64,000 bases of DNA from NCBI GenBank assembly GCA_947466585.1, contig CANIEU010000004.1:62001-126000 (forward strand). The letters are read 5' to 3'. The DNA is from Fibrobacterota bacterium (GTDB lineage: Bacteria > Fibrobacterota > Fibrobacteria > UBA11236). Shown here one piece after another: positions 22,454-42,654 of the stretch. Every line of letters starts with the position of its first letter. The first letter of the stretch is position 1. Made by a program: the position numbers and the translations under genes. The notes under the pieces are model-generated. The model did no database searches. It was given only the letters and a program-made list of their open reading frames with translations, and had not been told where the DNA came from.

Positions 22454-22556
22454 CGTTGGAAGACGGAAGACGGTAGTAGGTTGACGGTAGCAAAACCACC
22501 AAAACAGGCGAATGCGTTTGTGTTCTCAACCGGCTACCGACTACCGTCTACCGTCC
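22454..22556. repeat. Inverted microrepeat element A
   Basis: GAAGACGGTAGT (22466-22477) is matched in inverse at 22540-22551 with one mismatch, and CGGTAGC (22485-22491) at 22533-22539 exactly. The arms are built from short repeats of the type GACGGTAGT, and the left arm has a few extra bases. It fills most of the gap between the leuD stop and the pepP start. Confidence 0.75.
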
Positions 22557-29101: not shown

Positions 29102-29158
29102 GGAAAGACCTCGGAGGAAAACGGAGACGGGAAAGGTAGAAAGGGGAGGGTGGAGGCC

Positions 29159-29242
29159 GAAATATGAAATCAGAAATATGAAATATGAAAACAACACAGA
29201 ATCGATCCTTGTTTTCCTTTCATATTTCCGATTTCATATTTC
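29159..29242. repeat. Inverted microrepeat element C
   Basis: Two 25-base arms (29159-29183 and 29218-29242) match in inverse at 24 of 25 positions around a 34-base loop. The unit is GAAATATGAAATCA, tandemly repeated. It lies 10 bases beyond the DUF420 stop and before the ychF start. Element E uses nearly the same unit 25 kb away. Confidence 0.88.
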
Positions 29243-29252
29243 TGATTTTGCC

Positions 29253-29795
29253 CTAGGTATAGCTCCGCAGAATGAAAAACACCACCACGCCCGTTATCGA
29301 GACATACAGCCAGATGGGGTAGGTCCAGCGGGCGAGTTTGACGTGGCGGACGAGCTGGCCGGAGAGCGCGAACCAGAAGCTGGTGAGGATCATGGGAAGT
29401 GCGACGGCAGACAAGACGATGTGAGAGATGAGGATCGAGAAATACACCGGGCGGATGAACCCGCGTCCCGGGAACTTCGTTTCGCCGTGGAAGGCGTGAT
29501 AGACGATGTACCCGACCAGGAAGAGCGCCGATGTGGCGAAGGCGGAAAGCATGCGGCGGCGGTGCGCCTCGCGATCGCCGCGCCCGATGGCAGAAAGGCC
29601 GAGCACGATGAAAACCGTGGTGACCGCGTTGCAAGCTGCGTTCATCGCAGGCAGAAAGGCGAGGAAGCCGTTTGTGGTTCCAGTGGTATCGCGTCCGTAA
29701 ATGAGATAGACAAGGAATCCGAGCGCCGCCGCCGATACGAGCGCGATCAGAATTTCGGGGACTTTGGAGCGGGGGGCGGCGAGGTCTTGCGTCAT
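29253..29795 (-). CDS. DUF420 membrane protein (YozB/CtaM-like)
   Basis: A 180-residue protein with five hydrophobic helices. It carries the DUF420 signature: LPAMNAACNAVTTVFI, HRRRMLSAFATSALFLVGYIVYH, FPGRG and RPVYFSILISHIVLS. The conserved His residues suggest heme or copper handling; family members are linked to cytochrome oxidase assembly in Bacillus. No oxidase genes are in the window. It lies 54 bases after the unknown gene at 29850 on the same strand. Confidence 0.85.
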   Translation of the reverse strand: MTQDLAAPRSKVPEILIALVSAAALGFLVYLIYGRDTTGTTNGFLAFLPAMNAACNAVTTVFIVLGLSAIGRGDREAHRRRMLSAFATSALFLVGYIVYHAFHGETKFPGRGFIRPVYFSILISHIVLSAVALPMILTSFWFALSGQLVRHVKLARWTYPIWLYVSITGVVVFFILRSYT

Positions 29796-31853: not shown

Positions 31854-31871
31854 GGGATAAAAAGTAGTTCA

Positions 31872-32068
31872 CAGTTTAGGGTTCACAGTTTACGGTGAAC
31901 GCCGAATCCGTAGCTGAATTTTCATTTTCAAAGCCCAAAACAGGCTTGTTTCGTCTCAGATTTAAACACCTGCACAGGGAAACTTCGGAAGAATTTCCAG
32001 ATTTTCGTCAGAAGATTTTAGATGCATTGTGGTGGTTTGGTTCACTGTAAACTGTGAACCCTAAACTG
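31872..32068. repeat. Inverted microrepeat element D
   Basis: Arms of 29 bases (31872-31900 and 32040-32068) match in inverse at 28 of 29 positions and enclose 139 bases. Each arm is two copies of a 14-bp unit, GTTCACAGTTTAGG and close variants. The left arm lies beside the nadA start and the right arm ends seven bases before the birA stop. The enclosed AT-rich stretch has no gene. Confidence 0.9.
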
Positions 32069-32075
32069 CCAACTT

Positions 32076-39020: not shown

Positions 39021-39740
39021 ATGAAAAAACCATCCGTGACCTTTTTTCTTCTCGCCGTACTGGCCCTCCTGCCGCTCGGTTGCTTTTCTGCCGACAGCGA
39101 GAGTCGGTTGCGCGCACTTGAAGACAAGCAAGACAGCATTCTCTCGATTTTGCGTGTGATGCAGGAACAAAGCGAATTCGTGGCGCTGCGGGTGGGGTGG
39201 CGTCCGGCTGCGGACAACAAACCGAAGGTTATTCCCGTGGCCAACAGTTTCACGAAGGGCCCGGCCAACGCCGTGCTGACCTTGGTGGAGTTCTCCGATT
39301 TCCAATGTCCCTATTGCGCCCGGTTGGTTCCGGTGCTCGATTCGGTCTTGCGCGCCTATCCCAAGGACGTGCGGTTGGTGTTCAAGCATTTTCCGCTTTC
39401 GTTCCACGCGCAAGCGCGTGAAGCCGCGGCGGCGGGCATCGCCGCCGGCAACCAAGGCAAGTTTTTCGAGTTCCGTTGCCTCGTCATGGCCCAGTACCGC
39501 AGCCTCGATCAAGATGTTTACCTCGCTGCCGCCCAAAAAATCGGGCTCGACATGAACCGTTTCCGCCGTGAAATGGCTTTGACCGATGACGTGAACAAGA
39601 TTCTCGACACCGATATCGAACTCGGCCGCAACATCGGCGTCGAAGGAACGCCGACCTTGTTCGTGAACGGAAAGCTCGCAGAAGACCGTTCCTTCGACTA
39701 TTTCGCCCATCTCGTCGCCGAGGCCCGAAAGTCCAAGTAA
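39021..39740 (+). CDS. DsbA-like thiol oxidoreductase lipoprotein
   Basis: A 239-residue protein with a lipobox LPLGC, Cys21 being the lipid anchor. A short coiled coil (30-50) leads into a DsbA-type thioredoxin domain: FSDFQCPYCARL with Cys96 and Cys99, KHFPLSFHAQA, and the cis-Pro loop VEGTPTLFVNG. It should form or shuffle disulfides in the periplasm. The upstream 136-base gap contains imperfect repeats of CTTTTCTCG. No dsbB is visible. After its stop, 563 bases lack a gene. Confidence 0.9.
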   Translation: MKKPSVTFFLLAVLALLPLGCFSADSESRLRALEDKQDSILSILRVMQEQSEFVALRVGWRPAADNKPKVIPVANSFTKGPANAVLTLVEFSDFQCPYCARLVPVLDSVLRAYPKDVRLVFKHFPLSFHAQAREAAAAGIAAGNQGKFFEFRCLVMAQYRSLDQDVYLAAAQKIGLDMNRFRREMALTDDVNKILDTDIELGRNIGVEGTPTLFVNGKLAEDRSFDYFAHLVAEARKSK

Positions 39741-39852: not shown

Positions 39853-40008
39853 GGCCGACCTGAAAGCCATTCGTCGCACAAAGCCGGTGCGAGAACAAGT
39901 GATGCGAGGAGGCCGAGGAAGCGATACTGGAAAAGTATCGCGACGGAGGCCGCCTCTGCACCGCGATGTTCGCAGCCCGGCTTCTCCAGAATGGCTTTCA
40001 GGTCGGCC
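39853..40008. repeat. 156-bp structured element with perfect 20-bp inverted ends
   Basis: GGCCGACCTGAAAGCCATTC at 39853-39872 is repeated exactly in inverse at 39989-40008. Nested inside are AAGCCGG/CCGGCTT (39881-39887 with 39977-39983), TGCGA/TCGCA (39888-39892 with 39970-39974), GAGG/CCTC, GGCC/GGCC, and a GCGATACT/AGTATCGC hairpin (39921-39928 with 39934-39941). A purine-rich GAGGAA/GACGGA internal loop faces itself at 39915-39920 and 39942-39947. This is either a structured RNA gene or a MITE-like element. An open frame runs through it, but an in-frame stop lies at 39900. No known RNA family is recognised. Confidence 0.7.
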
Positions 40009-40009
40009 G

Positions 40010-40046
40010 AAAAAGGGGGCGGCGATCCACCGAAGTGGATCGCCGC
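40010..40046 (-). terminator. Terminator hairpin with UUCG loop
   Basis: On the minus strand, a perfect 12-bp stem (GCGGCGATCCAC and complement, 40019-40046) closes a TTCG tetraloop and is followed by CCCC and five T. It may end transcripts of the helicase gene whose stop is at 40304, and it lies directly against the 156-bp element. Confidence 0.8.
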
Positions 40047-40303
40047 TAATGATTAGGCCGTTATTACCCGCGCAACGGACACTAATCGAGGGAACCGAGT
40101 ACTTTGTTGCCCCCCTAAATTAGGCCCGCCTTCCCGCTTGCGCAACACGTTTCTGTTTTTTTATCGCACATTAAAATTCCGCTAAATTCGCGTGATTATC
40201 GTTTTATGGTGTACAAAGATGTGGCAAATTTTGGACGTATCGACCACTTCAGAATGGATGGAAAGGTCGGTTCGACGCATCCATCGGATGCAGTGATAAA
40301 GGG
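40047..40303. other. Gene-free stretch between the structured element and the helicase gene
   Basis: AT-rich parts alternate with short GC palindromes, including GCATCC/GGATGC near 40278-40292. No open frame of credible length, repeat or RNA gene is seen. Together with 39741-39852 it belongs to the longest gene-free region in the window. Confidence 0.5.
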
Positions 40304-41602
40304 TTAGCGCGTGCGAGCTGGGCGCGAGGGCTTCTCGGCTGGAAGGCCTTGTTCGACACGGATGAATTCGGCCCGTTTGTCAATGCGCACCTTGGCTTCG
40401 TGGACGCGTTTCGCCTGTTTGAGCCACGGATCGCCCTGCGCGTAGGCGGGATGAACCGGAATCGGTCCGCCGAATTCCTTCTCGATGTTGCGGAAGGCGA
40501 GATAGTCGTCGGGCCCGGCAAAGGAAAGGCAGGTGCCGGGGCGTTCGCGGCGCGCGGTGCGCCCTGAGCGATGCACGTACTCGCGATAGTTGCGGGGCAG
40601 GTCGAAGTTGACCACGAGATCGGCCTTGGGAATGTCGAGTCCGCGCGCCGCGAGATCGGTGGCGACCAATACTCGGAATTTCCCGTCCTTGAAACCCTGA
40701 AAGGCCAAGGCGCGTTCGCTTTGAAGGCGGTCGCCATGCAGGGCTCCGGAGGCGACGCCGCGCAGACGCAACAATCCGTTCAGGTGATTGGCCTTTTCGC
40801 GGTTGGCGACGAAGACGATAGCCTGGCCCTTGGTTTCCTTGAGCGTGTCGAGCAGGAGGTCGTTTTTGGTGCGGTTCGATTTGAGGAAAAAGAACTGCTC
40901 CGTCAGTGGCGCGCTCTTGGCCACCTGTACGTGATGCCGGGTGAGTTCTCCCAGCGGCAGGCGCTCGAGGGCATCTTCAGCCCCCGTGGCAGAGAACAAA
41001 AGCGTTTGCCTTTTCTTAGGGACCTTGGCGAGGATTTTACCGACCTGTTCTTCGAAGCCCATGTCGATGAGACGGTCGAATTCGTCGAGCACGAGAAAGC
41101 GGATGGAGCGTAGGAGCGCGGGATCACTCTCGAGGAGATCGATCAACCGACCGGGAGTGGCGATGAGAGTGTGCCACTCGCCTTGAAGGCGTCGGCGTTG
41201 CGCATCCGCATCATGACCGCCCAAGCACAATACAAGCCCCTCACGCGCCCGGTTTGCGGGGCCGTCGATGGCCTGAAGCATTTGGGAAACCTGATAGCCC
41301 AGCTCGCGCGCAGGAACCAGGATCAGATTGCCGTGGCGCGAGGGAAGGCGCGACCATAGGGGCAGCAGATAGGCGAGGGTTTTACCGGTTCCGGTGGGTG
41401 CCACTGCGAGGAAGGACTCCCCGGCAAGGGCCGCAGGAAGGCATGCATCCTGAACCGGGGTCGGCTTTTCGAAGCGAAGGCGTTCGATGGCATCAAACAT
41501 CTTCGCCGGAAGAAAGCGCCACGCGGCGGGGACGGGCATGGCCGCACTGGGCCTGGAAGAAATAGGCTTGGGAAGGCGCGCGCCCGCAGCCGGTTTCTTC
41601 AT
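40304..41602 (-). CDS. DEAD-box RNA helicase (DEFD variant)
   Basis: A 432-residue two-RecA-domain helicase. Motifs in order: the Q-motif region FEKPTPVQDACLP, motif I APTGTGKT, Ia PARELG, TPGR, motif II as DEFD in VLDEFDRLIDMGF, SAT, then VATDLAARGLDIP and HRSGRTAR. The C-terminal tail is basic. Such proteins remodel structured RNA, for example in ribosome assembly or cold response. The ATG at 41602 overlaps the DAHP synthase stop as ATGA. The Glu-to-Phe step in box III to DEFD is an accepted variant in some families. Confidence 0.93.
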   Translation of the reverse strand: MKKPAAGARLPKPISSRPSAAMPVPAAWRFLPAKMFDAIERLRFEKPTPVQDACLPAALAGESFLAVAPTGTGKTLAYLLPLWSRLPSRHGNLILVPARELGYQVSQMLQAIDGPANRAREGLVLCLGGHDADAQRRRLQGEWHTLIATPGRLIDLLESDPALLRSIRFLVLDEFDRLIDMGFEEQVGKILAKVPKKRQTLLFSATGAEDALERLPLGELTRHHVQVAKSAPLTEQFFFLKSNRTKNDLLLDTLKETKGQAIVFVANREKANHLNGLLRLRGVASGALHGDRLQSERALAFQGFKDGKFRVLVATDLAARGLDIPKADLVVNFDLPRNYREYVHRSGRTARRERPGTCLSFAGPDDYLAFRNIEKEFGGPIPVHPAYAQGDPWLKQAKRVHEAKVRIDKRAEFIRVEQGLPAEKPSRPARTR

Positions 41603-42654
41603 GCCGCCTGCAGCGTCTTCGTCATGCTCTTCATGCGCGTGTGGAGGCCGCGGGCTTCCTTGATCACCTGCGCGAGCACGTCGGGCGTGATCGCCTGTTT
41701 GGGATCGTCGCCCACACCGCGCTTCGGTTGGCAATGCGTCTCGATCACCAAACCGTCGGCGCCGTAGGCCACCGCCGCGATGGCGGCGTGCGGAACGTAA
41801 ACGGCCTTGCCGACGCTGTGCGACGGGTCGACGATCACAGGCGCCCAGGTCTTTTCCTTGAGCAGCGGCGTGATGCATTCATCGGGATGGTTGCGGTAGC
41901 CGTCCATGCCCGGTACGGTGCCGCGGGGGCACAGCATGATGTTCGGATTGCCCTGCGCCACGATATATTCGCCCGCGAGGATGAACTCGGAGATCGGGCC
42001 CATGTGCATGCTGCGCTTGAGCAGCACGCGCGTGCCGGTTCCCTTGGTGATGCGCCCCACCTCCTGCAGCAGGCGGTAGTTGAGGGCGCTGCGCGCACCG
42101 ATTTGGAGCGAATCGACGCCGGCGTCGACGCAAATGCGGGCCTGTTCGAAATCCATCACTTCGGTGTTGACCGGCAAGCCGGTCACTTCGCGGGCCTCGA
42201 GCAGGATGTCGAGGCTTTTCGCATCTCCCTGGAAGGAGTGCGGCGAGGTGCGCGGCTTCCACACGCCGCCACGCAGCATGTCGGCCCCGGCGGCCTTGAC
42301 GGCGTGGGCGGTTTCGAGGAAGAAGTTCCGGTTGTTGGGATCGATGGTGCAGTGGCCTGCGATCACGGCGAAGTCACCGGGCAGCACCCGCGAGCCGACG
42401 GTGATCTGGTGCTGAGCAAGGCTGCTCTCGCGGGCCATCAGCTTGTAGGGCACCTGGACACGGTCGATCCGGTCGATGTAGGGGAGACCCTCTATCCGGT
42501 TGATCAATTCCTGCGTGGTTTCGTCGCCCATGAGCGCGTAAATGGAACGCTGGGCGCCGTGGATGGTCTGGATGCCCACCCCGAACTCCGCGGCGATCTC
42601 GGTCACTTCTTTGAGTTCGGCGTCGGTCAGGCGGGGCAGCAGGGGGATAATCAT
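41599..42654 (-). CDS. aroF: 3-deoxy-7-phosphoheptulonate synthase (class I beta)
   Basis: A 351-residue enzyme for the first step of aromatic amino-acid synthesis. The N-terminal 70 residues form the ferredoxin-like regulatory domain of the Thermotoga-type DAHP synthase (IYALMGDET), and the TIM barrel has GHCTIDPNN, RGGVWKPRTSPHSFQG, LLKRSMHMG, the metal-binding Cys in IMLCPRGT, and DPSHSVGK. No chorismate mutase domain is fused. It shares a coupled transcript with the helicase gene. Confidence 0.94.
   Translation of the reverse strand: MIIPLLPRLTDAELKEVTEIAAEFGVGIQTIHGAQRSIYALMGDETTQELINRIEGLPYIDRIDRVQVPYKLMARESSLAQHQITVGSRVLPGDFAVIAGHCTIDPNNRNFFLETAHAVKAAGADMLRGGVWKPRTSPHSFQGDAKSLDILLEAREVTGLPVNTEVMDFEQARICVDAGVDSLQIGARSALNYRLLQEVGRITKGTGTRVLLKRSMHMGPISEFILAGEYIVAQGNPNIMLCPRGTVPGMDGYRNHPDECITPLLKEKTWAPVIVDPSHSVGKAVYVPHAAIAAVAYGADGLVIETHCQPKRGVGDDPKQAITPDVLAQVIKEARGLHTRMKSMTKTLQAA

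Follow-up and report, generated by a model that had tools for sequence, protein, structure and literature searches.

The analyzed window, a stretch of 64,000 nucleotides from a contig of a Fibrobacterota bacterium, includes a pair of convergent genes with a 156-bp palindromic element between them. No obvious gene is found from the stop codon of the first gene, which is dsbA-like (39740), to that of the second, a helicase gene on the minus strand (40304). The region is made up of the following features:

39021..39740, + strand: thioredoxin-fold/DsbA-like lipoprotein gene, named by sequence reading; syntenic in relatives
39853..40008, + strand (core orientation): whole element, 156 bp, probably MITE-like, with perfect 20-bp inverted-repeat ends and the architecture common to its family; absent from five orthologous loci
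39853..39872, + strand: left terminal inverted repeat (TIR) GGCCGACCTGAAAGCCATTC, 100% complementary to 39989-40008
39873..39882, + strand: left spacer GTCGCACAAA, on direct reading similar to the spacers of copies L003 and L078
39883..39981, + strand: conserved core hairpin of 99 nt, GCCGG...GCAGCCCGGC, which defines the family (covariance model R2, covariation)
39921..39941, + strand: apical 8-bp hairpin GCGATACT-GGAAA-AGTATCGC, from the fold
39982..39988, + strand: right spacer TTCTCCA, on direct reading xxCTCCA in L003 and L078
39989..40008, + strand: right TIR GAATGGCTTTCAGGTCGGCC, the complement of the left arm
40007..40095, - strand: candidate small RNA with its own terminator, detected by covariance model R3 in ten of ten genomes of the bacterial family; the element lies behind its T-tract
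40019..40046, - strand: intrinsic terminator stem-loop of the candidate small RNA, with the tail CCCCTTTTTC
40304..41878, - strand: DEAD-box RNA helicase gene, named by sequence reading, start uncertain; syntenic in relatives

The initial annotation of this DNA had described perfect 20-bp inverted ends, nested helices with purine-rich internal loops and an 8-bp apical hairpin, in an arrangement too ordered for chance, and our analysis bears out this description. The two outer arms are fully complementary over 20 bp, and are separated by 116 nt; of the 25 longest close inverted repeats listed in the window, this is the longest that pairs perfectly. All of the internal helices and loops are present in the computed fold of the 156 nt, which has an energy of -98.9 kcal/mol, compared to -54.4 +/- 4.0 kcal/mol for 200 dinucleotide shuffles (z = -11.2), none of which matched it; the structure is thus real. 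The core scores 89.3 bits (E 1.5e-23) with the covariance model R2 in the window. The adjoining minus-strand terminator was likewise confirmed, its stem (40046-40019) being located at the right end of the element. The comparison of the region to Rfam release 15 yielded no match, either at the gathering score or with the limit raised to E = 1; thus, as far as Rfam is concerned, the earlier statement that no known RNA family fits is correct.

The pair of DsbA-like and DEAD-box helicase genes is syntenic in the related genomes G001, G002, G003, and G007; in G004, synteny covers the DsbA-like side only. In all five of these relatives, the 156-bp unit is absent from the orthologous place, although the exact junction is not alignable. 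Approximately 10-120 bp separate the stop codon from the terminator of the small RNA in G001-G004, and other sequence intervenes in G007. The lack of the unit at five orthologous loci indicates that, judging from synteny, it is a lineage-specific insertion directly behind the small-RNA terminator. Because the element is absent from the syntenic relatives, there is no conserved reading frame. The flanks of the element contain no target duplication (TCTA on the left, GAAA on the right).

A DNA search of the source genome against itself revealed the repeat in six places. Using a covariance model of the 99-nt core, we found the copies that the initial annotation had proposed to look for: 16 in the source genome, about 30 in the congener G003, and none in two further congeners, G001 and G002; weaker copies occur across the remaining family and class. 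A second covariance model, built from 65 copies, detected the family in 107 of the 168 genomes and 20 of the 41 genera of the phylum. In about 20 copies, the core is flanked by a spacer of 8-15 nt and a TIR on the left and by a spacer of 6-12 nt and the complementary TIR on the right; their long outer inverted repeats occupy equal positions, about 6-15 nt off the core, and most of these copies are 156-165 bp long. Similar spacers, TCGTCGnAnnAA and nnCTCCA, are common to the window copy, L003, and L078, and the arm sequences vary between full-length copies with their complementarity kept. Direct flanking repeats were observed at some Fibrobacterota copies (CTAA/CTAA at L063, TTA/TTA at L042, and TAA/TAA at L098). 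The unit is non-coding, dispersed in multiple copies, and, at 156 bp, within the size range of MITEs (<500 bp). A simple stem pattern was discarded as a family search, as its matches were mostly due to chance.

Many other copies lack TIRs and comprise only the core. The 3' foot of such copies in Fibrobacter and G003 is mostly found -2 to +20 nt from a stop codon, as judged by a longest-ORF heuristic; the genes read toward the hairpin, the orientation is constant, and a terminator often lies beyond. At two TIR-less copies of G003 (L070 and L082), the outer stem pairs the final codons of the neighbouring gene with an inverted duplicate of this stretch on the far side of the hairpin; this pattern suggests that a template switch occurred or that a palindrome was the insertion site. 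An origin of the outer arms as inverted copies of gene ends applies to these few TIR-less copies and is not general. A second small palindromic repeat of 45-60 bp, approximately GAGAATTGAAAGYATGAG-[hairpin]-CGAATC, is nested within or located beside element copies at L004, L088, L095, and L096 (G000, G003).

In the alignment of 65 copies, all 30 pairs show double-sided compensatory changes, the covarying secondary structure that is characteristic of structured RNAs, and 93.4% of the cells are paired. The covariation score was 0.706, compared to 0.188 for shuffled and at most 0.114 for slid alignments; the model was used to fit the alignment, but the slid controls are far lower. Hence, the absence of covariation, which had been named at the outset as an outcome that would contradict the original description, was not observed. 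Among the non-Watson-Crick pairs, G.T outnumbered A.C (39 vs 11 overall and 17 vs 0 in the two basal helices), suggesting that one strand matters more. This excess favours the '+' strand as the one that folds, and model scoring may add some bias. The loop motifs GCGAG, AGG, CGA, and ACGC are individually well kept. Since the core keeps its internal-loop motifs and its stems change compensatorily, the hairpin itself is probably used, more likely on the '+' strand.

If the core were a functional 3'-untranslated-region RNA that protects or terminates mRNAs, was spread by duplication and is maintained by selection, the MITE ends would be secondary. The covarying stems and the loop motifs held throughout the phylum would be accounted for in this way, as would the strand bias; however, the mRNA next to the hairpin runs on the strand opposite to the favoured one in the very TIR-less copies whose placement at stop codons, in one orientation and often next to a terminator (Fibrobacter, G003), speaks for such a role. 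Furthermore, G.U pairs make up only about 2%, conservation of the unpaired columns does not significantly exceed that of the paired columns overall (p 0.23), and a host function that is conserved is made less likely by the absence of the family from G001 and G002 and of the unit from the orthologous sites. We consider this explanation unlikely. The non-coding RNA proposed in the initial annotation stands in part: the stems covary strongly and many copies are located at the 3' ends of genes, with the RNA role itself remaining a candidate. It is possible that the shorter copies at stop codons are used as a 3'-end RNA element.

We scanned GTDB genomes by motif; the matches listed include Gallionellaceae, Nitrosomonadales, Chitinimonas, Methylotenera, Rhodocyclaceae, and Fibrobacter, as well as Clostridia (tandem arrays) and a Nannocystineae (myxobacterial) MAG. 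The cross-phylum representatives fold into a single hairpin with the same outer module and have E values of 2e-12 to 6e-3 with the Fibrobacterota model; these R2 scores are not independent because the loci were chosen by motif. In Clostridia MAGs (L157, L199, and L226), related core modules are arranged in tandem, head to tail, with a period of about 116-132 bp. The unit of Gallionellaceae and allies is a MITE of 141 bp with the TIR GGGCRCCTCTA, and 39 of the 53 units, a count in which a few loci were entered twice under two locus ids, are flanked by 4-bp target duplications, compared to 3.6% in a mismatched-pair control. Thus, the target-site duplications foreseen for a mobile unit are missing at the window copy, present at a few Fibrobacterota copies, and frequent in these relatives. 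The same TIR occurs in the source genome at copy L035 (GGGCACCTCTAATGATGG), which was found by the covariance model and not by the TIR pattern; close forms are present at L101 and L105, and the TIR of the window copy is weakly similar. The pattern occurs about 175 times per strand in the Gallionella MAG G169 (JANLIB01), and a part of these occurrences belongs to a second MITE, about 110 bp long (e.g., L302-L305), with the same ends as the 141-bp unit (GGGCACCTCTAAAAATTCAGA...GACGAATTTTTAGAGGTGCCC). A comparison of the Gallionella consensus to the PLSDB plasmids produced no match.

No DDE_Tnp_1, DDE_Tnp_1_2, or Y1_Tnp was detected in the fragmented assemblies of the source genome and G003. Regular expressions for insertion sequences with GGGCRCCTCTA ends, applied to all loci, returned MITE-size pairs, the 110-bp MITE, and a few composite cases. 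The DDE_Tnp_1 loci of G004, G169, and G170 were considered as a source, and those examined had other ends. Because no autonomous element with matching ends was found among the loci and the three transposase families examined, in assemblies that are fragmented, we use the term MITE-like and do not assign the unit to a named IS-derived MITE.

An origin of the family as REP-like hairpins, transferred in single-stranded DNA form by a RAYT (a Y1 tyrosine transposase), is quite improbable. The family shares with REPs a palindromic, extragenic, multi-copy character, imperfect hairpins, placement at 3' ends, and strand asymmetry, and Y1 genes are present in some copy-rich genomes (G162, G163, and G056). 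However, the distribution of Y1_Tnp is not tied to copy number, and it is lacking in the source genome, G003, G007, and several copy-bearing Fibrobacter genomes. REPs are palindromes of about 20-40 nt with a GT(A/G)G head (PMC2817692), much shorter than the 97-100 nt core, which has no such head, and the TIRs and 4-bp duplications of the relatives point to a DDE-type insertion. That the element is an unusually long terminator or a chance hairpin is scarcely credible: its location between convergent genes and beside a terminator fits this notion, which is refuted by the 16 related copies, the covariation, and the absence from orthologous sites. Finally, the recombination site suggested in the initial annotation found no support. 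Integron attC sites have terminal GTTRRRY / RYYYAAC core sites and lie in cassette arrays; on reading the sequences such core sites were not seen, and the copies are dispersed.

Taken together, the dispersed copies, the full-length architecture, the empty orthologous sites, and the duplications in relatives support the MITE-like mobile unit, the remaining proposal of the initial annotation, and we consider it probable that the feature is a palindromic mobile element of a MITE-like, non-autonomous kind, present here as an old copy that is still full-length. We infer the enzyme, the order of the steps, and the present role as follows. An enzyme encoded elsewhere would recognize the TIRs (canonically GGGCRCCTCTA in several lineages), act in trans, and excise or copy the unit, which would then enter intergenic DNA via a short staggered cut that generates the 4-bp target duplications. 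The window copy would have landed behind the small-RNA terminator, between the two convergent genes, and the hairpin may serve mobility or, once inserted, act as an RNA structure at 3' ends. It should be noted that several facts count against the MITE interpretation: a target duplication is missing at the window copy, its TIR is weakly canonical, many copies are TIR-less, the searches for the three transposase families in the source genome and G003 and for an autonomous element were negative, and the cross-phylum scores depend on the motif. A MITE alone would not be expected to show a fixed orientation at stop codons, and this orientation, together with the conserved interior, fits a simple MITE account poorly.

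Prokaryotic MITEs are non-autonomous, are moved in trans via their TIRs, and generate short duplications, which wane in older copies (PMC10969869). By description, the nearest analogue is QMITE2 of Coxiella burnetii, a short non-coding unit with TIRs of 23-29 bp and a core of 113-145 bp; the whole unit forms one very stable hairpin, is found mainly in 3' UTRs, and has truncated, end-less copies that resemble REPs (PMC10969869). It is thus similar to the present element in size, hairpin form, 3'-UTR placement, and REP-like end-less copies. Unlike QMITE2, the present family has an interior that covaries over a phylum and related modules in other phyla, and direct repeats are absent at the window copy. 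ERIC elements, likened to the present element by description as well, are palindromic repeats of more than 100 bp (unit of 127 bp, PMC2759123) that are intergenic, variable in copy number, reported from Enterobacteriaceae and Vibrionaceae, and able to affect mRNA decay when located at the 3' ends of genes (PMC10969869). The palindromic form, the length, the intergenic location, and the variable copy number are common to both, and an effect on mRNA decay may be; the host range and the 4-bp duplications made by relatives of the present element are differences. Structured RNAs in Rfam share with the present element a covarying multi-helix hairpin.

A literature search on the family, its ends, and Fibrobacter repeats found nothing relevant, and the hairpin family is apparently new to the literature. 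Small palindromic repeats are usually bound to a lineage and decay without structural constraint; the present family keeps its hairpin across a phylum, and apparently beyond, with the stems rewritten. Speculatively, and with a rather low probability, the family represents a mobile hairpin module conserved over several phyla, the GA-rich one-strand loops of which are recognized by a widespread mobilizing or binding protein. If this were the case, recognition would occur as single-stranded DNA or RNA, the canonical TIRs would be one delivery form among others, and the copies abutting stop codons would reflect a second, orientation-specific insertion mode. The family is a good test case for whether the interior of a MITE is selected and what recognizes it, and it accounts for many unannotated intergenic hairpins in genomes of Fibrobacterota and Gallionellaceae.

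The neighbouring small-RNA candidate is unannotated and consists of about 85 nt, CCCTCGATTAGTGTCCGTTGCGCGGGTAATAACGGCCTAATC followed by the intrinsic terminator. It has no Rfam match; covariance model R3 detected one to three copies in each of the ten genomes of the bacterial family, one in the next family, and almost none beyond. Both stems vary in a compensatory manner (GATTAG/CTAATC to GAGTGG/CCATTC and CCGTT/AACGG to CGGTT/AACCG), and a -10-like TATCTTA/TACCTTA is present upstream in several genomes. Other long inverted or tandem-like repeats of the window are located at 29154-29254 (GAAATATGAAATC), 31866-32074 (AGTTCACAGTTTAGGG), and 22462-22555 (GACGGAAGACGGTAG).
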